A stretch of 64,000 nucleotides of DNA from Lachnospiraceae bacterium. GTDB taxonomy: Bacteria > Bacillota > Clostridia > Lachnospirales > Lachnospiraceae. The stretch spans positions 143,117-207,116 of the forward strand of contig JAFVHP010000037.1 of NCBI GenBank assembly GCA_017474455.1. Direction: 5' to 3'. Shown one piece after another: positions 12,109 to 31,778 of this stretch (positions are counted from its first letter, which is position 1; each line of letters starts with the position of its first letter). The notes beneath the pieces are model-generated. The model saw only the letters and a program-made list of their open reading frames with translations. It searched no databases and had not been told where the DNA came from. The position numbers and the translations under genes were made by a program.

Positions 12109-13125
12109 TCAGCAAAAATCCCTGATCAATGAAGGAATAAAGCTCTCTTCGGCGGTGGGGCCTTCCTGGATATAGCCGTTTTCGACGCCTTCGGAAATGG
12201 CGAGATCGACGAGTTTTTCATAAGAGCGCTTTGATACTTTATGCGCAAGGGCTTTAATGGCAGGGTCATCGGATGCCCCTGCTGTTTTTATGATCTCCGG
12301 CATCGGTGTGTACTGATTCATAAGGGATATGATGATCCGGTCGCCGAAGGTCCGGTGCAGCCATTCGATGATCCCGCCGGAATCGGCCGCCTGCCGCGGC
12401 ATAACGAGGTGGCGGACGATAACGCCTTTTATCATCAGGCCGTCTGCGCCGATCAGCGGTTCGGGATGCTGCCGGACCATTTCCGTTACGGCGGCAGAAG
12501 CTACTTCAAAATAATCAGGTGCGGAAGCGTATATCGATGAAAGCCGGGGATCCATGAATTTCAGGTCGGCAAGGTAGATGTCGGCAAGGCCGTCCAGCGC
12601 CGCCAACACTTCCGGGCGTTCATAGGAGCCGGTATTCCATACGAACGGGACAGTAAGGCCCAAAAGCCTGGCCTTTTCCATTGCCGGGATCAGGAGCGGT
12701 GTGTAATGGGAAGGTGTGACGAGATTGATATTGTGGGCGCCCTGTGCCTCCAGTGAGAGAAAGATGTCCGCAAGGTCATCTGCGGAAACAGCTTTGCCTC
12801 TGAGCGCGTTTTGTCTCTGGCTGACGGAGGCGTTCTGGCAGAAGATGCAGCCCAGGCTGCAGCCGGTAAAGAAAACTGTGCCGGAGCCTTTCGTACCGCT
12901 GATGCAGGGCTCTTCCCAATGGTGCAGCGAATAGCCGGCGATCCGGATCTGCCCGTCGCTGCCGCAGATACCTGTGTTCCTGGCCCCGGCGGCACTCTCC
13001 GTGTCAGCACTGCCGGGACTGCCGGCGGTACGGCGGGCATGACACTGCCTGGGACAGAGGATGCAGTCTGAAAGATCTGAAAGGCGCTTGTATGAAGGCA
13101 TGTTTTTTTTTGTAAAAATCTCCAT
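12109..13125 (-). CDS. Radical SAM protein, PflX-like (COG1313)
   Basis: The radical SAM cluster motif CSLGCIFC (CxxxCxxC) is followed by QNASVSQ, as in pyruvate formate-lyase-activating-like proteins of the PflX group. A second cysteine set near the N-terminus (CILCPRQC) is also typical. The family makes a 5'-deoxyadenosyl radical; the substrate is not known. The start is uncertain: the ATG at 13125 directly abuts the T-run that ends the SRP RNA gene, and an A9 tract separates it from a second in-frame ATG at 13101. Neither has a well-placed ribosome-binding site. Transcription may read through from the SRP RNA promoter. Confidence 0.85.
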   Translation of the reverse strand: MEIFTKKNMPSYKRLSDLSDCILCPRQCHARRTAGSPGSADTESAAGARNTGICGSDGQIRIAGYSLHHWEEPCISGTKGSGTVFFTGCSLGCIFCQNASVSQRQNALRGKAVSADDLADIFLSLEAQGAHNINLVTPSHYTPLLIPAMEKARLLGLTVPFVWNTGSYERPEVLAALDGLADIYLADLKFMDPRLSSIYASAPDYFEVASAAVTEMVRQHPEPLIGADGLMIKGVIVRHLVMPRQAADSGGIIEWLHRTFGDRIIISLMNQYTPMPEIIKTAGASDDPAIKALAHKVSKRSYEKLVDLAISEGVENGYIQEGPTAEESFIPSLIRDFC

Positions 13126-13299
13126 AAAAAAGCTTCTTTTGCGCTGCGGAGCCTGTAAGCGAATGAAGACCAGGCTGGCTTACGGCACATGAGAGCATCC
13201 GCTTAGTGCTGCTTCGTTCCCGATCTGACACGGTTCACAGCGTCTCATTGCATAAGACCCGGCCTCCCCGGTTACAAAGCTCCGCAGCGCAAAAGAAGC
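13126..13299 (-). ncRNA. ffs: Signal recognition particle RNA (SRP RNA / scRNA)
   Basis: On the minus strand, the segment complementary to 13208-13229 reads GTCAG followed by GGGAACGAAGCAGC, the conserved Ffh-binding apical helix of bacterial SRP RNA with a GGAA loop and asymmetric internal loop; it is flanked by GTGAACC and CACTAAG, as in Gram-positive forms. The RNA is closed by a perfect 21-bp terminal helix (13279-13299 pairing with 13132-13152), and six T residues follow on the minus strand (13131-13126), so the terminal helix doubles as the terminator. The SRP RNA binds Ffh to target nascent membrane proteins. A full Alu domain of the long Bacillus type is not obvious at this ~170-base length, so exact ends are uncertain. 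Confidence 0.85.
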
Positions 13300-13333
13300 G
13301 CTTGAGGTCGTTCGTTTAAGTTTGAAACAATTT

Positions 13334-13339
13334 ATTATA
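13334..13339 (-). promoter_or_regulatory. -10 element of the SRP RNA promoter
   Basis: TATAAT on the minus strand, about 35 bases upstream of the terminal helix of the SRP RNA. No convincing -35 hexamer at 16-18 bases was found, so only the -10 is called. Confidence 0.5.
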
Positions 13340-25136: not shown

Positions 25137-26246
25137 TTGAAATACCGGATCGACCGCTCTGCCGGCGCTGCGCCGGCATACATGCAGCTCTATGAACAGC
25201 TCCGCCGTGACATCACCGGCGGTGTGCTTGAATTCGGGGATAAACTTCCTTCCAAGAGGCTGCTTTCCGAAGAAACGGGGGCCGGCCTGATCACGGTCGA
25301 GCATGCCTATGCACTGCTGGAAGAGGAAGGCTATCTGGAAGCCAGGCAGCGGAGCGGGTACTATGTGATCTATACGGAAGCGGACAGCCTGCCGGAAAGG
25401 ACAGGACCGGATGCGGCCGGGATTGGGCGGCGGTATGAAGGGGCAGTCTCCGGCAGCGCGATCACAGAGCGTGATCCGGAAGAATTCCCTTTTTCTGTTT
25501 ATGCCAGGACGATGAGACGGATCCTCCTGGATTATTCGGACAGGATCCTGGAGCCCTCTCCGGGAGCCGGCTGCACCGAACTCAGACAGGCGCTGGCATC
25601 CTATCTTTTACGAAGCCGCGGCATGGACGTGCGGCCGGAGCAGATCCTGATCGGTGCAGGCGCGGAATACCTGTACACCATGGCTGTAAGGATACTGGGC
25701 AGGGAAAAAAGGTATGCCATCGAAGACCCTTCCTACAATAAGATCAGGCTTGTCTATGAGGCAGAGGGAGTCAGTGTGGAAGCGCTGGAACTGGGGCCGG
25801 ACGGGATCGTCAGCAGCCGGCTGCGCGAATGCACTGCCGATATCCTGCATGTAACGCCCTTTACCAGCTACCCGAGCGGGATAACCGCGACGGCTTCAAA
25901 GAGAAAAGAATATATCCGGTGGGCGCTGGAGCGGGATGCCTATGTGATCGAGGATGATTACAATTCGGAATTTTCTATATCCACAAAAGCGGAAGACACG
26001 CTGTTCCTGCTCGAACCCGAACGCCACGTCATTTATATGAACACCTTCAGCCGGACCATATCCCCGTCGGTCAGGATCGGCTATATGGTACTGCCGGGCG
26101 AAAGATACCGGGCAATGCTGGAAAAGAACGCTTTCTATGCCTGTACCGTGCCTGTGTTCGAACAGCTCGTACTGGCCCGCTTCATCGAGGACGGGGACTT
26201 TGAAAGACATATCAACCGGGTAAGGAGAAAGAGGAGACGGAAGTAA
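25137..26246 (+). CDS. MocR/PdxR-type regulator, C-terminally truncated
   Basis: GntR-type winged helix at residues ~12-80 (GDKLPSKRLLSEETG) followed by a class-I aminotransferase-like domain. Two features suggest it is not a normal PLP regulator. First, the PLP lysine position in the family motif (TFSKTxxPxxRxGY) reads TFSRTISPSVRIGY, with Arg at residue 306. Second, the protein ends at HINRVRRKRRRK, where homologs (about 450-480 residues) continue for another ~80 residues. The stop lies next to a large palindromic element starting at ~26250, and no remaining coding sequence was found beyond it. It may be a decayed gene or an element-truncated one. It starts with TTG at 25137, 5-6 bases after AAGGA. 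Confidence 0.75.
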   Translation: MKYRIDRSAGAAPAYMQLYEQLRRDITGGVLEFGDKLPSKRLLSEETGAGLITVEHAYALLEEEGYLEARQRSGYYVIYTEADSLPERTGPDAAGIGRRYEGAVSGSAITERDPEEFPFSVYARTMRRILLDYSDRILEPSPGAGCTELRQALASYLLRSRGMDVRPEQILIGAGAEYLYTMAVRILGREKRYAIEDPSYNKIRLVYEAEGVSVEALELGPDGIVSSRLRECTADILHVTPFTSYPSGITATASKRKEYIRWALERDAYVIEDDYNSEFSISTKAEDTLFLLEPERHVIYMNTFSRTISPSVRIGYMVLPGERYRAMLEKNAFYACTVPVFEQLVLARFIEDGDFERHINRVRRKRRRK

Positions 26247-26249
26247 GTT

Positions 26250-26425
26250 TAATAGGTCCGGCCTCACAGATCATATGTGCCCTGCGGGACGCTTTCGCTA
26301 TGATGCCGCTGGTCACGTTACATAACGCAGCAAAACGGGCGGTCTCCGCCCGTTTTTTACGCTGCGTAAGTAACGACCGCGGCATAATCCGCGCAGGGCA
26401 CATATGATCTGTAAGGCCGTCATTA
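26250..26425. repeat. Structured palindromic element, copy 1
   Basis: A ~176-base imperfect palindrome. The outer arms pair perfectly over 20 bp (26267-26286 with 26392-26411), with weaker pairing beyond to TAAT ends. Inside are an asymmetric loop, a conserved 40-base block (26286-26325, core TGATGCCGCTGG), a GC-rich terminal hairpin and a 20-base partner block (26368-26387). Both blocks recur in copy 2 at 31062-31210 (33/40 and 18/20 identical) in opposite orientation, while the outer stem and terminal hairpin differ completely in sequence but still pair. On the minus strand the asymmetric loop holds GC-GAAA-GC, a GNRA mini-hairpin. It abuts the truncated regulator gene. Confidence 0.85.
26332..26358. 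terminator. Bidirectional intrinsic terminator inside palindromic element 1
   Basis: CGGGCGG (26336-26342) pairs with CCGCCCG (26346-26352), flanked by four A on the left and six T on the right, so it can stop transcription from either side. It forms the tip of the larger palindrome. Confidence 0.85.
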
Positions 26426-26522
26426 ACAAACTATAGCTGTCCATAAATATTGAGTGCACGATCAAATTTGTTTGAGTGAATAGAAACAGGGTGTTGAATG
26501 ATGCTCGTATTGCTCAAAATTA

Positions 26523-26551
26523 TTCACAGATAATGGCGGGTGTGGTATAAT
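26523..26551 (+). promoter_or_regulatory. Strong promoter for the C-deglycosidase-like operon
   Basis: -35 TTCACA (26523-26528), 17-base spacer and extended -10 TGGTATAAT (hexamer 26546-26551). The leader to the first start codon is ~97 bases and includes an inverted repeat GAACA...TGTTC (26582-26597), a possible operator. Confidence 0.8.
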
Positions 26552-26654
26552 TAATAAGCTATATTATGAACGACCTGAAGAGAACACGGGCCTGTTCGTA
26601 AAGGTGGCAGAAGTGTATAAGGGTTTACTTTTAGGAAAGGAGTGAAGTAAGAGT

Positions 26655-27104
26655 ATGTTTGACAGCTTTCTGGTAAGAAGCGATTCACTGGAGAACGTAT
26701 ATGACGCGTCCGGAAAGGCAGTCGGATTCAAGTTCGGCGTAAGGCTTTCCAACTACCGCGGAATCTATGTTTCCCTAGTCAATGACTTTTATGTCTGCAT
26801 GGACGGGGAAGAATTCAGCACGGAGGATTACTGCCTCGAGCTGAACGGAATGCCGCCCAGAACTATGGAAGAGCTTATCAAATATCCCTTTGAACACTGG
26901 GATCTGCAGGATGAGGCAATGCTGTATGTAAAGAAAGAAGGCGGACTTGCACCCGGTATGCACAGCCTGGATTATCTTCCTTCCACTATGGACGCATACG
27001 GATATCAGGCACATGATGACGAATGGGTCGTCAATCCTCCGAAGCCCGGCAAAGGCGGCGGCAAGCAGATGAGGCCCTGCCATTTCGATCTTGAGCTTCA
27101 GTAA
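26655..27104 (+). CDS. DUF6379-like protein, candidate C-glycoside deglycosidase small subunit
   Basis: A 149-residue protein with no signal peptide, rich in beta-strand-like alternation (VGFKFGVRLSNYRGIYVSLV), ending in a basic Gly/Lys segment (PPKPGKGGGKQ). Its size, its opening and its position directly before a xylose-isomerase-like TIM-barrel gene match the small (beta) subunits of C-deglycosylating enzymes such as DfgB and of related gut-bacterial systems, annotated as DUF6379. In that family the small subunit packs against the barrel and helps shape the active site. The gap to the next gene is 18 bases, with AAGGGAGG between. The assignment rests on remembered family resemblance and context, not on an alignment. 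Confidence 0.65.
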   Translation: MFDSFLVRSDSLENVYDASGKAVGFKFGVRLSNYRGIYVSLVNDFYVCMDGEEFSTEDYCLELNGMPPRTMEELIKYPFEHWDLQDEAMLYVKKEGGLAPGMHSLDYLPSTMDAYGYQAHDDEWVVNPPKPGKGGGKQMRPCHFDLELQ

Positions 27105-27122
27105 GAAGGGAGGAAGATGACA

Positions 27123-28190
27123 ATGATCAAAAGAGGTGTATCATTATACAGCTATCAGCAGAATGAATTCTTTCATACCATGACATGGAAGGATGAACTT
27201 AAGGAAGTCGCGAACAATCTTCGCGGCGCAGACGGGATCGAGATCATCAGCGAATGCACGATCCCCCATTATCCCATGCCGCCGGAGAGCTTCTTCTTCG
27301 AGTGGAACAATGAGATCGCAAGATGGGGCCTGACACCCACAACGATGGATACCTACATGGACACCCTGCAGTTCCGCGATCATGTCCTGACCGATGCGGA
27401 GTGTGCCGAGAGGCTTAAATATGATATCAGACTGGCCAAGAAGATGGGCTTCAGGAACATGCGCCTTTGCCACAATGTTCCCCTTAAAGCAGTGGAGATA
27501 GCCCTTCCCCTTGCTGAGGAACTGGATATCCGCCTGACGAATGAAGTCCATGCACCGAGCCCGATCAAGCCTAAGAGGGGCGTTGACTGGGGCGAGACAG
27601 TTGCCAGGGATATCGCGTTCATCCAGAGGACCGGGACAAAGCACTACGGACTTCAGCCTGACATGGGTATTTTCCAGAACAAGCCCTGCCGTGTCATGCT
27701 CGCATATGCGCTCCGTGCCGGCCTGTCAAAAGACGATTCTTTCAAGGCAGCGGATGAGGTCCTTGTAAAATATGATGAAATCGGAGAAGACAGAGAAGCA
27801 TTCTTCGCATGGGGCAAAGAAGCTTATCCGGATCTTTTCGCATCCAGGTATGCCAGCTTCATGTTCAGAGGCGCATCTGCCGATCCGCTGGATCTGTATG
27901 ACATTATCCCTTATATCTACTGCATCCACGGCAAGTTCTATGAAATGACCGAGATCCCCGGCAAGCCCGGCCAGTACGAAGACAAGTCGATCATGTATCC
28001 CGAAGTTATCGGCATCCTTGCCGACTGCGGTTATGACGGATATATCGATTCCGAATATGAGGGCCAGAGGAGCCAGCAGGATATGGGCTATGAAGGACTT
28101 CCGAATGAAGTAGAGGAAGTCAGGCGCCATCATGAAATGCTCTCCAGGCTGATCGCGGAAGCGGATCATAAGAATAAGAGTAAACAGTAA
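27123..28190 (+). CDS. Xylose-isomerase-like TIM barrel, candidate C-glycoside deglycosidase large subunit
   Basis: A 355-residue sugar phosphate isomerase/epimerase-family TIM barrel. A four-residue metal site is visible: E141 (RLTNEVHA), D180 (LQPDMG), H269 (CIHGKF) and E311 (DSEYEG), the Glu-Asp-His-Glu pattern used by this superfamily and by DfgA-type C-deglycosidase alpha subunits to hold Mn2+ or a similar ion. The pairing with the upstream DUF6379-like gene supports cleavage of C-C linked sugars (puerarin-like or other aryl C-glycosides, after oxidation at the sugar C3). No Gfo/Idh-type oxidoreductase for that oxidation is nearby. The ATG at 27123 is better spaced from AAGGGAGG than the one at 27117. 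A plain sugar epimerase remains possible. Confidence 0.7.
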   Translation: MIKRGVSLYSYQQNEFFHTMTWKDELKEVANNLRGADGIEIISECTIPHYPMPPESFFFEWNNEIARWGLTPTTMDTYMDTLQFRDHVLTDAECAERLKYDIRLAKKMGFRNMRLCHNVPLKAVEIALPLAEELDIRLTNEVHAPSPIKPKRGVDWGETVARDIAFIQRTGTKHYGLQPDMGIFQNKPCRVMLAYALRAGLSKDDSFKAADEVLVKYDEIGEDREAFFAWGKEAYPDLFASRYASFMFRGASADPLDLYDIIPYIYCIHGKFYEMTEIPGKPGQYEDKSIMYPEVIGILADCGYDGYIDSEYEGQRSQQDMGYEGLPNEVEEVRRHHEMLSRLIAEADHKNKSKQ

Positions 28191-28231
28191 GCACTGATGC
28201 TGCAGTATGCAGACAGTATCCGACTGAACGA

Positions 28232-28280
28232 AAGACCGTGCGGTATACCCGGGTTTCATCGGGTACCGCACGGTCTTTTT
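28232..28280 (+). terminator. Strong intrinsic terminator
   Basis: AAGACCGTGCGGTA (28232-28245) pairs perfectly over 14 bp with 28264-28277, followed by a T-run, 40 bases after the TIM-barrel gene. Confidence 0.92.
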
Positions 28281-28294
28281 GTCGGTGAAGTCAA

Positions 28295-28323
28295 TTGACA
28301 AACACCGAATATTCAATCATAGT
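28295..28323 (+). promoter_or_regulatory. Promoter for the MFS transporter gene
   Basis: Consensus -35 TTGACA (28295-28300), spacer 17, weaker -10 CATAGT (28318-28323). Confidence 0.65.
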
Positions 28324-28401
28324 TAAACTGCCTGTTTACACATCGGCTCAGGCTCCGGGCTTTGCTGATGGAGATGTTAAAGAAACGGAGAATGTACGAT
28401 C

Positions 28402-29607
28402 ATGTCAAATAAAAAGAAATTATGGGCGCTTGCGGTGATTATGATCTCCCTGCTGCAGATGCACGGTGTAGGTATGTCGGCCATGCTGGCGCAGATCGGG
28501 AAAGCGTTTCCGGAAGCCCCGGACTCAAAGATCCAGTTTATCCAGACTTTGCCGGCACTGTTCGTGCTGCTGACGATCATTCCGTCTTCTTTCCTCGCGA
28601 GGAAGATCAAGCACAGGTATCTGTGCGCTTTCGGTGCGGCTGTTGTATCGGCATTCGCGATTCTCGGCGCGCTGTTTCACAATTCAGTCGGTATCCTTTA
28701 TCTGTGGTCGATCGTCCTGGGTATCGGTGCCGGCTTCACAGTTACAGTCGGCACTATCGTTATCGATGACCTGTTCGTCGGTTCCGAGAAGGTAACCGTC
28801 CTTGGCCTGCAGGCCTTCGCTGCCAGTGCCGGTACCATGCTTATCACCTTTATCAGCGGCAGACTGGTACAGAAAAACTGGTATCTCGGTTATCTGGCTT
28901 ATCTCATCGCGCTGATCCCTTTATTTGCGAGCCTGTTCTTCCTGAAAAATTCTCAGGAGGAAGTGGAAGCGGAGAGACAGAAAGCAAAGAACAGAGGAGC
29001 AGGCGGAGCGGCCTCGTCCGAAGAGAAGTGCTATGTTCCGGGTGTCATCTTTTCCGTAATCTTTGCCTTCATGATGGGCGTTATCTACAACGTCCTCAAT
29101 ACGAACATCGGTTATTATCTTTCCGAAAAAGGCATTGGCAATTCCGGTACGGCCGGTACAATGATGACTGTATTTCTTCTGTTCTCAGGCCTTATGGGAC
29201 TGGTTGTAGGTTTCCTGACGAAGAAGATCGGCCTGTTTACAGTTGGCGTGGGGTTTGCTGCCATGTGCCTGGGCGACTTTCTCGTTTCGATCAGCCCCAA
29301 TGTCCCGCCGGTAGTCATCGGCGGCATGCTGGCCTGCTGCGGCATACCTTTTGTTATGCCCGTCGTACTGGCAAATGCCACACAGACGGGAGGCAGGATC
29401 TCATCCATGGCACTGACTATGACACTGATGGGTGCGCAGCTTGGCAACTTCGCTTCTCCGGTACTTACGACTGTTGCTGCGAAGGTATTTCATTCTGATA
29501 TGGTCGTATACCGTTACCGACTGGCCGCTGTCATCTCCTTCATCTGTGTGGTCTGCGTAGTCGCTTATGCCCTCAGCCAGAAAAAACGGGCAAAAGCACT
29601 AGCGTAA
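28402..29607 (+). CDS. MFS transporter
   Basis: A 401-residue protein with about 12 hydrophobic helices and a charged central loop (QEEVEAERQKAKNRGAGG), the usual major facilitator layout. ARKIKHRY after helix 2 matches the loop 2-3 signature. Substrate is not predictable from sequence; the position just after the C-deglycosidase-like pair, though behind a terminator and with its own promoter, suggests uptake of a glycoside or export of a product (inference). It ends 22 bases before the MATE gene. Confidence 0.88.
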   Translation: MSNKKKLWALAVIMISLLQMHGVGMSAMLAQIGKAFPEAPDSKIQFIQTLPALFVLLTIIPSSFLARKIKHRYLCAFGAAVVSAFAILGALFHNSVGILYLWSIVLGIGAGFTVTVGTIVIDDLFVGSEKVTVLGLQAFAASAGTMLITFISGRLVQKNWYLGYLAYLIALIPLFASLFFLKNSQEEVEAERQKAKNRGAGGAASSEEKCYVPGVIFSVIFAFMMGVIYNVLNTNIGYYLSEKGIGNSGTAGTMMTVFLLFSGLMGLVVGFLTKKIGLFTVGVGFAAMCLGDFLVSISPNVPPVVIGGMLACCGIPFVMPVVLANATQTGGRISSMALTMTLMGAQLGNFASPVLTTVAAKVFHSDMVVYRYRLAAVISFICVVCVVAYALSQKKRAKALA

Positions 29608-29629
29608 AAAATGTATCAGGAAGGATATA

Positions 29630-31039
29630 ATGACAACTTCAGTGCCGCGCAGACCGCGCGGAGACAATGCCGGCAGATTATTTGACCGAAACAGGATCGA
29701 TTTCAGCGATCTGCTGTTTGATAGTATTTCTTTGAAAAAGCTGCTCCTCCCGCTGATCGTGGAGCAGCTTCTTACTTCTTTTATGGGAATGGCGGATACG
29801 ATGATGATATCCAGGGTCGGCAGCGCTGCCATTTCCGCTGTTTCCCTGGTCGATTCCATTAATATCCTGGTGATCCAGGTCTTCGCCGCGCTGGCGACGG
29901 GGGGAACGATCGTCTGTTCACAGTATATCGGCCATGGGGACAAAGCCCGGACCAACAGCGCGGCCAGACAGGTCGTGCTGACGATCCTTTTCATTTCCTG
30001 TCTTGCGGCAGCTGCCTGCATGATATTCTGTACGCCGATCCTGCGGCTGGTGTTCGGGACGGTGGAAGAAGCCGTCATGCGCAATTCGCAGGTGTACTTC
30101 CTGGTGACGGCAGCATCTTTCCCGTTCCTTGCGCTGTTCCAGGCCGGGGCGGCGTTCTACAGAGCAGGCGGCAACAGCCGTTTCCCGATGACAGTCTCCG
30201 TTATCTGCAACGCCGTTAACATTGCCGGTAATGCCATCTTCATTTTCGTGTTTCACTGGGGCGTTTTCGGCGCCGCGCTGTCAACTTTGATATCACGCAT
30301 ACTTCTGGCTGTTATCGTGTTTGCTTTCCTGAGGCTGCCCAGACAGATCATCGTGATCGACAGATACCTGTCAATGCGCCCGGATTTCACTGTCATCCTG
30401 AAGATCCTGTCGGTCGGGATCCCGGCAGGGATAGAAAGCGGTATGTTCCAGTTTGGCAAACTGGCCATCCAGTCGTCTGTATCGACGCTGGGAACAGCGG
30501 CGATCGCGGCCCAGGCTATGACTAATATCCTGGAAAACCTGAACGGGATCGCCGGTATCGGCATCGGGCTCGGGCTCATGACTGTAGTGGGCCAGTGTAT
30601 CGGCGCGGGCCGGACGGAAGAAGCGAAATACTATATTGTAAAAATATATCTGATCGGAGAGGCAGCAGTGACTGCTTCCTGCCTGTTCGTATATGCGATC
30701 ACAAGGCCGGTGGTATGGCTCGCCGGAATGGAACCCGCGAGCGCGGATATGTGTATCTGGATGATGGGCTGGATCACCCTGGTCAAACCTGTCGTTTGGT
30801 CGGCTGCCTTTATTGTGCCCTATGGCTTCAGGGGGGCCGGCGATGTGAAATTCAACATGATCATGTCCAGTTTAAGTATGTGGCTCTGCCGGGTCGTCCT
30901 GGCGACTATTCTGATAAGGGTCTGCGGCTTCGGACCGATCGCGGTCTGGATCGGCATGTTCTCTGACTGGACGATCCGCGCCATTATTCATTATTTCCGG
31001 TTCAGATCCGGCAGATGGCTGAACCATGCGGTGATATGA
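29630..31039 (+). CDS. MATE family efflux transporter
   Basis: A 469-residue protein with 12 predicted helices in two similar halves. The opening IVEQLLTSFMGMADTMMISRVG and the later LPLIVEQ/GIPAGIESGMFQFG-type repeat start are typical of MATE exporters (kept here as short fragments: EQLLTSFMGMADTMMIS; GIPAGIESGMFQFG). It exports drugs or metabolites using a Na+ or H+ gradient. AAGGA precedes the ATG. Likely co-transcribed with the MFS gene upstream. The region beyond its stop is occupied by palindromic element 2. Confidence 0.92.
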   Translation: MTTSVPRRPRGDNAGRLFDRNRIDFSDLLFDSISLKKLLLPLIVEQLLTSFMGMADTMMISRVGSAAISAVSLVDSINILVIQVFAALATGGTIVCSQYIGHGDKARTNSAARQVVLTILFISCLAAAACMIFCTPILRLVFGTVEEAVMRNSQVYFLVTAASFPFLALFQAGAAFYRAGGNSRFPMTVSVICNAVNIAGNAIFIFVFHWGVFGAALSTLISRILLAVIVFAFLRLPRQIIVIDRYLSMRPDFTVILKILSVGIPAGIESGMFQFGKLAIQSSVSTLGTAAIAAQAMTNILENLNGIAGIGIGLGLMTVVGQCIGAGRTEEAKYYIVKIYLIGEAAVTASCLFVYAITRPVVWLAGMEPASADMCIWMMGWITLVKPVVWSAAFIVPYGFRGAGDVKFNMIMSSLSMWLCRVVLATILIRVCGFGPIAVWIGMFSDWTIRAIIHYFRFRSGRWLNHAVI

Positions 31040-31061
31040 TCAGGATATCTGACTTTTCGTG

Positions 31062-31210
31062 AACTGTCCGTCAGGCTGATGTAACGGTTCTCCGTGCCTT
31101 ATGCCGCGGCCGGTACTTGGGGACCGTCCTTCAGGTCCCTTATGTACCGTTGCCAGCGGCATCAGAGCGGGAGCGTGCCGGAGAACTGTGCATCAGCCCG
31201 GCGGACAATG
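31062..31210. repeat. Structured palindromic element, copy 2
   Basis: A ~149-base imperfect palindrome between the MATE gene and the acetyltransferase gene, ending 16 bases before the latter's ATG. Outer arms pair from TGTCCG (31065) through ~31090 with ~31180-31207. On its minus strand it carries the two conserved blocks of copy 1 (plus-strand coordinates 31140-31179 and 31099-31118). On the plus strand the asymmetric loop holds GC-GGGA-GC, again a GNRA mini-hairpin. Two base pairs in the inner helix differ from copy 1 by compensatory changes. The terminal hairpin is GGGACC/GGTCCC, different from copy 1. Confidence 0.82.
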
Positions 31211-31226
31211 CAAAAAGGAGTTTATA

Positions 31227-31778
31227 ATGACTGAGTTGGAAAAACAGAAATCCTTGGAGGAATACTGGAATAACGATCCGGAGATCGTAGAGGCAAAGAA
31301 GCGTGCCAGGATGATCACACAGATGATCAACCAGACTCCGGCAGAAGATACGGGAAAGATCTTTGACATTGCCTGTGAACTGTTCGGATCGTGCGGTAAA
31401 GGGCTCTATATCAAGCCGCCTTTCTACTGTGATTTCGGATACAACATACACGTCGGGGAAAACTGCATTATCAATTTCCAGTGTGTGCTTCTGGATGAAG
31501 CCCCCATCATCATAGGCGACAATTGTATGATAGGACCGATGACAGGGCTGTACACCGTCAGCCATCCGCTGGATCCGGAACGCAGGGCAGCAGGATATGT
31601 TTCGGGGAAGCCCATCGTGCTTGAAAACAATGTCTGGATAGGCGGCAGCTGTACGATCCTGCCCGGTGTGACGATCGGTGAAAATGCCGTCATCGGCGCG
31701 GGTGCTGTCGTTACGAAGGATATACCGGCAAATACCGTGGCCGCCGGCAATCCGGCAAAAGTATTAAGAAAGCTCTGA
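31227..31778 (+). CDS. Sugar O-acetyltransferase (Maa/LacA type)
   Basis: A 183-residue left-handed beta-helix acetyltransferase with hexapeptide repeats (VTIGENAVIGAGAVVTKDIP) and the N-terminal Mac domain. The family moves acetyl from acetyl-CoA to maltose, galactosides or similar sugars; the catalytic His is in YTVSHPLDPERR. AAAAAGGAG precedes the ATG at 31227; the frame is open upstream into element 2, but that is not coding. The substrate is not known. Confidence 0.92.
   Translation: MTELEKQKSLEEYWNNDPEIVEAKKRARMITQMINQTPAEDTGKIFDIACELFGSCGKGLYIKPPFYCDFGYNIHVGENCIINFQCVLLDEAPIIIGDNCMIGPMTGLYTVSHPLDPERRAAGYVSGKPIVLENNVWIGGSCTILPGVTIGENAVIGAGAVVTKDIPANTVAAGNPAKVLRKL

Follow-up and report, generated by a model that had tools for sequence, protein, structure and literature searches.

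Mobile palindromic hairpins conserved across Lachnospiraceae may be selected as folded DNA

Introduction

A 64,000-nucleotide stretch of DNA from a Lachnospiraceae bacterium (hereafter, the window) contains two related palindromes in opposite orientation. A preliminary description, made from the letters of the sequence, called them two copies of a conserved, covarying structured element and offered two readings: the signature of a selected RNA structure, or hairpin DNA spread by a transposase. The locus raises the question of what kind of element these copies are, how far it has spread, and whether its fold is kept as RNA or as DNA.

Results

Copy 1 with its arms and core spans 26259-26419 of the window and copy 2 spans 31065-31207; these limits, taken from the folds, are close to those first proposed (26250-26425 and 31062-31210). 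A 40-base block (26286-26325 against the complement of 31140-31179) is identical at 33/40 positions and a 20-base block (26368-26387 against the complement of 31099-31118) at 18/20, exactly as the preliminary description had counted. The value of 33 is also the best 40-base match between both regions, and 60 shuffles reach 24 at most. Either strand of both copies folds far below shuffled sequence (z of -15.0, -15.7, -7.8 and -8.1). The strand with the GNRA loop is the minus strand in copy 1, which folds at -120 kcal/mol (z -15.7) and matches the covariance model described below with 125.8 bits, and the plus strand in copy 2 (z -8.1; 116.3 bits). In the folds the outer arms of copy 1 (26259-26285 and 26388-26419) are complementary to each other and resemble none of the arms seen in the other 23 copies. 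Those of copy 2 (31065-31098 and 31177-31207) likewise pair in the fold and, by alignment, show no relationship with the copy 1 arms. Each copy has a folded mini-hairpin, GC-GAAA-GC at a three-way junction in copy 1 (26291-26298, read on the minus strand) and GC-GGGA-GC in copy 2 (31167-31174, plus strand). In copy 1 the variable apical stem (26326-26366) includes, by sequence and fold, a terminator-like GC hairpin with A and T runs on its two sides; in copy 2 (31119-31140) it folds as a short stem-loop without that insert. Alignment and folds thus bore out the compensatory changes claimed for the joining helix, the two GNRA loops, and the outer arms and apical stem that are unlike in sequence between the copies with pairing kept.

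Copy 2 is flanked by the end of a MatE gene (31039) and the start of a hexapeptide-repeat transferase gene (31227). Between both copies, at 26655-29607, lie a gene for a C-glycoside deglycosidase beta subunit (PF19906), an adjoining 357-aa ORF that has no Pfam match and that we took for a sugar isomerase-like partner, and then an MFS transporter; these genes are possibly a cluster for the use of plant C-glycosides. Elsewhere in the window, an Rfam search placed a bacterial large SRP RNA at 13125-13337 on the minus strand (102.8 bits).

A pattern of the core matched the window twice, with 0 matches expected, and the whole genome seven times, with 0 for the reversed control. By our own reading 6/7 of these matches have the same fold, and we took the seventh for a chance match. 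A first covariance model, built from the six like-folding copies, was searched against the window's genome and found 24 copies at E < 3e-18; a further match, at E 1.63, is weak. The same model found copies in 17 of 36 other genomes of the genus, two of these weakly, whereas 24 genomes representing other families within the order gave none. Among 397 sampled Lachnospiraceae genomes, 142 carry the element, and they come from 124 of 334 genera, the window's own included; this survey scored the 8 best candidates per genome, so its copy numbers per genome are minima. Further copies in related genomes, on which the preliminary description had made its case depend, are thus plentiful. An in-depth search of nine positive genomes gave 1 to 40 copies apiece, and carriers in which the pattern search and the model matched in the same loci include Roseburia porci, R. 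inulinivorans DSM 16841, Coprococcus catus and Butyrivibrio species. In a sample of the class, 7/291 genomes were positive and all seven were from Lachnospiraceae. Outside the family, one Quinella contig (L181) scores 52 bits, a match that we took, without a test, for contamination or transfer. We conclude that, within the samples searched, the element is nearly confined to one bacterial family.

The preliminary description had recognised no known riboswitch or ribozyme, and Rfam likewise gave no family for either copy. At gathering scores the window yielded SRP RNA elsewhere only, a search of 26000-31500 to E 5 returned a single weak match outside both copies, and 10 further element loci returned nothing to E 0.1. 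Our literature searches turned up no paper that we recognised as describing the family, with a 2017 list of 224 candidate RNAs outside their coverage. An origin from phages, plasmids or viruses found no support: the short pattern occurs in three viral contigs that lack the fold of the element, and there was no match for copy 1 in a plasmid collection or for copy 2 in a phage collection, each copy having been compared with that one collection only.

We read the anatomy of the element on the strand carrying the GNRA loop, using 104 matches taken from 95 loci searched with the model. In the conserved unit of about 110 bases, an outer stem leads to a three-way junction, one side of which carries a GNRA mini-hairpin of two pairs; the rest is an inner stem whose internal loops are fixed and an apical stem that varies. 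By eye, all 24 copies of the window's genome follow one folding plan with outer arms that differ in sequence; the outer stem can be of nearly any sequence, and a bulge near the junction is common. The apical loop starts with G in 96/104 copies and continues with T in 94/104. After the variable apical stem comes the mini-hairpin, A-GC-GNRA-GC-G, in which both the A before it and the G after it are present in 104/104 copies. Its loop is GNRA in 102/104 (GAGA 45, GAAA 23, GGGA 15, GCAA 9, GGAA 7 and GCGA 3), the two exceptions being GTCA and AAAA. Two Watson-Crick pairs of the inner stem are replaced in many copies by a tandem G-A pair, and at these two core positions 81/84 of the non-Watson-Crick cells are G-A, so that the hairpin form itself seems to be selected. 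A terminator-like hairpin bordered by A and T runs is present in the long apical stems of L009, L011, L015, L022, L023 and L027-L029; in other copies there is just a short apical loop, without such an insert.

Evidence for movement came from the ends of the copies. In one genome, G026, the ends read ATGATGT..AGGTCAAAAG, and both are present in 16 of the 18 copies examined (19 fetched). All 16 two-ended copies are flanked, by eye, by direct repeats of 3-4 bp. Both ends and direct repeats were likewise seen by eye in 4/6 examined copies of G010, and the one copy of G008 in which both ends are present shows no direct repeat. Taken over G026, G010 and G008, a target-site duplication of 3-4 bp, judged by eye, accompanies 20/21 two-ended copies among 26 examined. 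Both ends are also found in 6/10 copies examined in G022, 7/10 in G031 and 3/12 in Roseburia porci, and the ends in these genomes and in rumen genomes differ from the G026 type. No target duplications were seen for G022, G031 or the window's genome. Ends of the G026 type, with 1-2 mismatches, border a 2-kb element (L196:891-2862) encoding a 536-aa protein with DUF772 and DDE_Tnp_1_6 domains, the best NCBIfam match of which is the IS1182 model (E 1.7e-39) at a score of 136, under the model's cut-off of 270. This IS1182-like element was rejected as a carrier of the core, its best core match being 6.6 bits (E 0.42). The idea that a transposase family shares the ends of the copies thus held for one subfamily, the IS1182-like one of G026; in the window's genome no common ends or terminal repeats were seen by eye among the 24 copies. 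We conclude that the element has spread as MITEs with terminal inverted repeats in some genomes, with target duplications of 3-4 bp in two of them.

A Y1 transposase was rejected as the mobiliser, because the window's genome (G000, 96.55% complete) has 0 Y1_Tnp matches at E 1e-6; such matches are present in 209/397 sampled genomes. G026 also contains 40 forward and 37 reverse matches to the ATGATGT-type ends, with numerous pairs 68-160 bp apart, and these closely spaced pairs are probably deletion derivatives without the full core. In G451, at about 1290-1480 of L255, a MITE-like palindrome adjoins a core copy, and its ends resemble those of the G026 IS1182-like element.

Copies lie mostly between genes, a point that the preliminary description had raised. 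Among 78 copies examined, 65 have two clear neighbours, 12 are overlapped by an ORF call (made by a simple longest-frame method) and one is without a neighbour. Relative to the genes, the GNRA strand of the 65 copies is sense in a tandem arrangement in 22 and antisense in 25, with 11 copies between convergent and 7 between divergent genes. We found no common neighbour gene, since the 20 proteins that flank copies in the window and at 11 other loci are of unrelated families (4/20 without a Pfam family), and no upstream sequence common to the 24 copies of the window's genome was seen by eye. A replication-strand bias was also rejected for G451, where GC skew at 20 places assigned the GNRA strand to the lagging side in 10/17 copies, by our count. 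Among 169 copies of ten genomes, 13 neighbour pairs lie less than 300 bp apart, of which 11 are minus-plus and 0 plus-minus. Back-to-back pairs of this kind occur in G451, G241, G002, G337, G322 and C42 of the window's own genome, with about 46-264 bp between model ends; in the close inverted pairs that we viewed, the arms were unrelated to each other.

We then considered how the stems stay paired. An alignment of six copies already had double changes at 17/34 pairs, with 96% of cells paired. In the 104-copy alignment, which was fitted to the covariance model, double changes fall on 33/34 pairs and the covariation score is 0.728 compared with 0.197 (sd 0.007) for shuffled alignments; 0/500 shuffles reach the observed score, and slid controls give 0.043-0.117. 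The description of the element as conserved and covarying thus stands, with one of five measures, the number of further pair types, not above shuffles (104 vs 101.4, reached by 130/500). G-U pairs are rare. They make up 1.8% of 3504 cells (63 G-U, 44 A-C), and once the four outermost pairs, both G-A columns and a single column that contains 26 G-U are set aside, the counts are 28 G-U and 26 A-C. The SRP RNA of 30 related genomes, used as a control, has 440 G-U and 9 A-C among 2397 cells (18% G-U), on a structure derived with RNAalifold, a method that favours G-U; RNAalifold applied to 30 random rows of the element gave 25 G-U and 20 A-C among 1136 cells. Cells with double changes are of the transversion type in 548 cases and of the transition type in 487, compared with 79 and 266 in SRP RNA.

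An alignment blind to G-U, however, put G-U over A-C at about 2:1 (85:42, 53:26, 28:19 and 20:10 at rising stringency; p = 0.0002, 0.003, third not tested, and 0.1, the counts not being independent). The comparison with SRP RNA rests on the RNAalifold structure, as the G-U-blind arm alignment did not work there. Together with changes between orthologous cores, of which five are to G-U and one to A-C, the 2:1 ratio indicates that a strand preference exists. The mismatch type showed no clear link with the direction in which flanking genes are transcribed, G-U:A-C being 12:9 in sense and 16:7 in antisense copies. G-T is the milder mismatch in DNA too, and a mini-hairpin of the form GC-GNRA-GC has unusual stability as DNA. 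We conclude that the pairing pattern fits a hairpin maintained in DNA, perhaps on one of its strands, better than an ordinary RNA.

These data bear on the alternative that survives best, a structured noncoding RNA made from the GNRA strand, which would be multi-copy through MITEs, would act either in trans or within a 3' UTR, and would have strictly Watson-Crick stems. The GNRA loops, the strong covariation, the near-invariant letters of the junction and the excess of G-U over A-C in the unbiased alignment and the orthologous cores are what such an RNA would leave, whereas the tenfold richer G-U content of SRP RNA, the lack of a transition bias among double changes, the random orientation to genes, the G-U/A-C ratio without a clear tie to flanking transcription, the lack of an Rfam match in the window or 10 loci, and the 24 copies without a common upstream sequence argue against it. 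We regard this RNA as possible and rather doubtful. The selected RNA of the preliminary description is therefore weakened: its GNRA loops are real, and its pairing, with G-U near the level of A-C, and its placement in either orientation to genes are unlike those of an ordinary RNA. The hairpin DNA spread by a transposase that had been named beside it fits better, and its link to transposition was found in some genomes.

Copies at orthologous sites allowed change in the core to be compared with change in its surroundings. Of the 12 copies fetched from G268, 10 are also present in G631, and one copy is common to G454 and G163. Across these 11 pairs the core differs at 35/911 positions (3.8%), whereas flanks differ at 6.6% and near flanks at 10.9%; without L240 and L242, which have clustered changes and were excluded post hoc, the core differs at 10/746 (1.3%) vs 7.3%. 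Of 342 orthologous core pairs, 329 are unchanged, six changed on both sides and are still paired, five changed to G-U, one changed from G-U and one is broken. In the arms, single changes led to G-U in 13 cases, to A-C in 13 and to other mismatches in 27, and 18 pairs changed on both sides with pairing kept. The outer arms of L239 and L249 differ on both sides with 0 core differences, and in the orthologous copies L242 and L250 both arms differ together. The two remaining G268 copies are present in G631 as fragments only, which indicates that single copies are dispensable. Empty sites in G631 were rejected on the same grounds, as the two apparently empty sites hold these fragments; at the first of them G672 has no trace of the element, in sequence too diverged for the junction to be read. 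Shortened derivatives are present in G026 and G010.

Such piecemeal loss, the shortened derivatives and arms that change en bloc are what would be expected of an ordinary MITE relic, a palindrome that has become neutral after its spread, in which covariation reflects quasi-palindrome correction only and the core appears conserved through recent copies. A neutral core should not change less than its flanks, as it does in the 11 pairs and also after the post hoc exclusion, or keep its GNRA mini-hairpin in 102/104 copies from many genera, and we consider a relic distinctly unlikely. A transposon-derived bidirectional terminator or mRNA 3'-end hairpin, selected at gene ends in either orientation, is highly improbable: 16/24 model matches in the window's genome do have the stop codon of an ORF call at a distance of 25-50 bases, a GC hairpin bordered by A and T runs is present in several apical stems and use of both strands would predict strict Watson-Crick pairing, but the terminator-like insert is missing from many copies, 7/65 copies lie between divergent genes, and the asymmetric GNRA junction would be left unexplained.

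Discussion

The family to which both copies belong is real, large, mobile and conserved. That it is a Lachnospiraceae-wide family of mobile palindromic DNA hairpins with a selected centre is, in our judgement, about an even call, and part of this reading is what we infer. The family would move in trans on borrowed transposases. Copying between the arms at the level of DNA, by hairpin template switching or hairpin repair, would rewrite both arms together, and the arms may stay complementary for this reason. Selection would preserve the core in the form of a cruciform or a folded strand of DNA, most likely one that a putative protein recognises. A DNA hairpin is consistent with the many copies, with arms that are unlike in sequence yet pair, with the double changes, with the rarity of G-U and with orientation to genes that is sense in 22 and antisense in 25 copies. 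Counted against it are the purine at the third loop base in 102/104 copies, since GNRA is a hallmark of RNA, the 2:1 excess of G-U over A-C in the unbiased alignment, further pair types that are not above shuffles, the window-genome copies in which terminal repeats were not seen, and an IS1182 score of 136 that is below the cut-off of 270. No core-binding protein was found either: Y1 transposase, the single candidate tried, has no match in the window's genome. A more specific form of the DNA hairpin would be a class of mobile element whose folded single strand, with its GNRA loop, tandem G-A pairs and internal loops, is recognised by a dedicated putative Lachnospiraceae enzyme, each element regenerating its own palindromic arms, with ends and arms swapped wholesale and the centre inherited. 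We consider this form unlikely.

Several known systems resemble the family in part. One account of RUP, Correia/NEMIS, ERIC and the Rickettsia palindromic elements describes them as short, multi-copy, often intergenic and with long hairpins, and RUP as presumably mobilised in trans by IS630-Spn1 (PMC2229807). The Lachnospiraceae element is like these bacterial MITEs and palindromic repeats in shortness, copy number, frequent intergenic site and long hairpins. To our knowledge, however, copies within one such family share their ends, whereas here ends and arms vary by copy and species and an asymmetric centre is conserved across Lachnospiraceae. The IS1182-family insertion sequences and their MITEs are similar in that the ends of the G026 MITE match an IS1182-like element with 1-2 mismatches; they differ in that this insertion sequence is without the core, and other subfamilies have other ends, none of which was seen in the copies of the window's genome. 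The REP and REPIN elements of RAYT (Y1) transposases are imperfect DNA hairpins with conserved mismatches that are often paired in inverted orientation. The imperfect hairpin here is similar and its close pairs are inverted too (11/13), but it is much longer, and the window's genome has no Y1 transposase match. Candidate structured bacterial RNAs, as characterised in one account, are noncoding and covarying with a conserved fold (Weinberg 2010, PMC2864571). The element described here has these three properties as well, and differs in being without an Rfam match, poor in G-U, free in orientation and mobile.

Taken together, the element would be a widespread, conserved and so far nameless hairpin family in a major family of gut and rumen bacteria. 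Its strong covariation without the usual G-U signature is a caution for the discovery of RNA motifs. Copies at orthologous sites would offer natural material with which to trace the rewriting of palindromic arms and to learn which factors recognise chromosomal DNA in its folded form.
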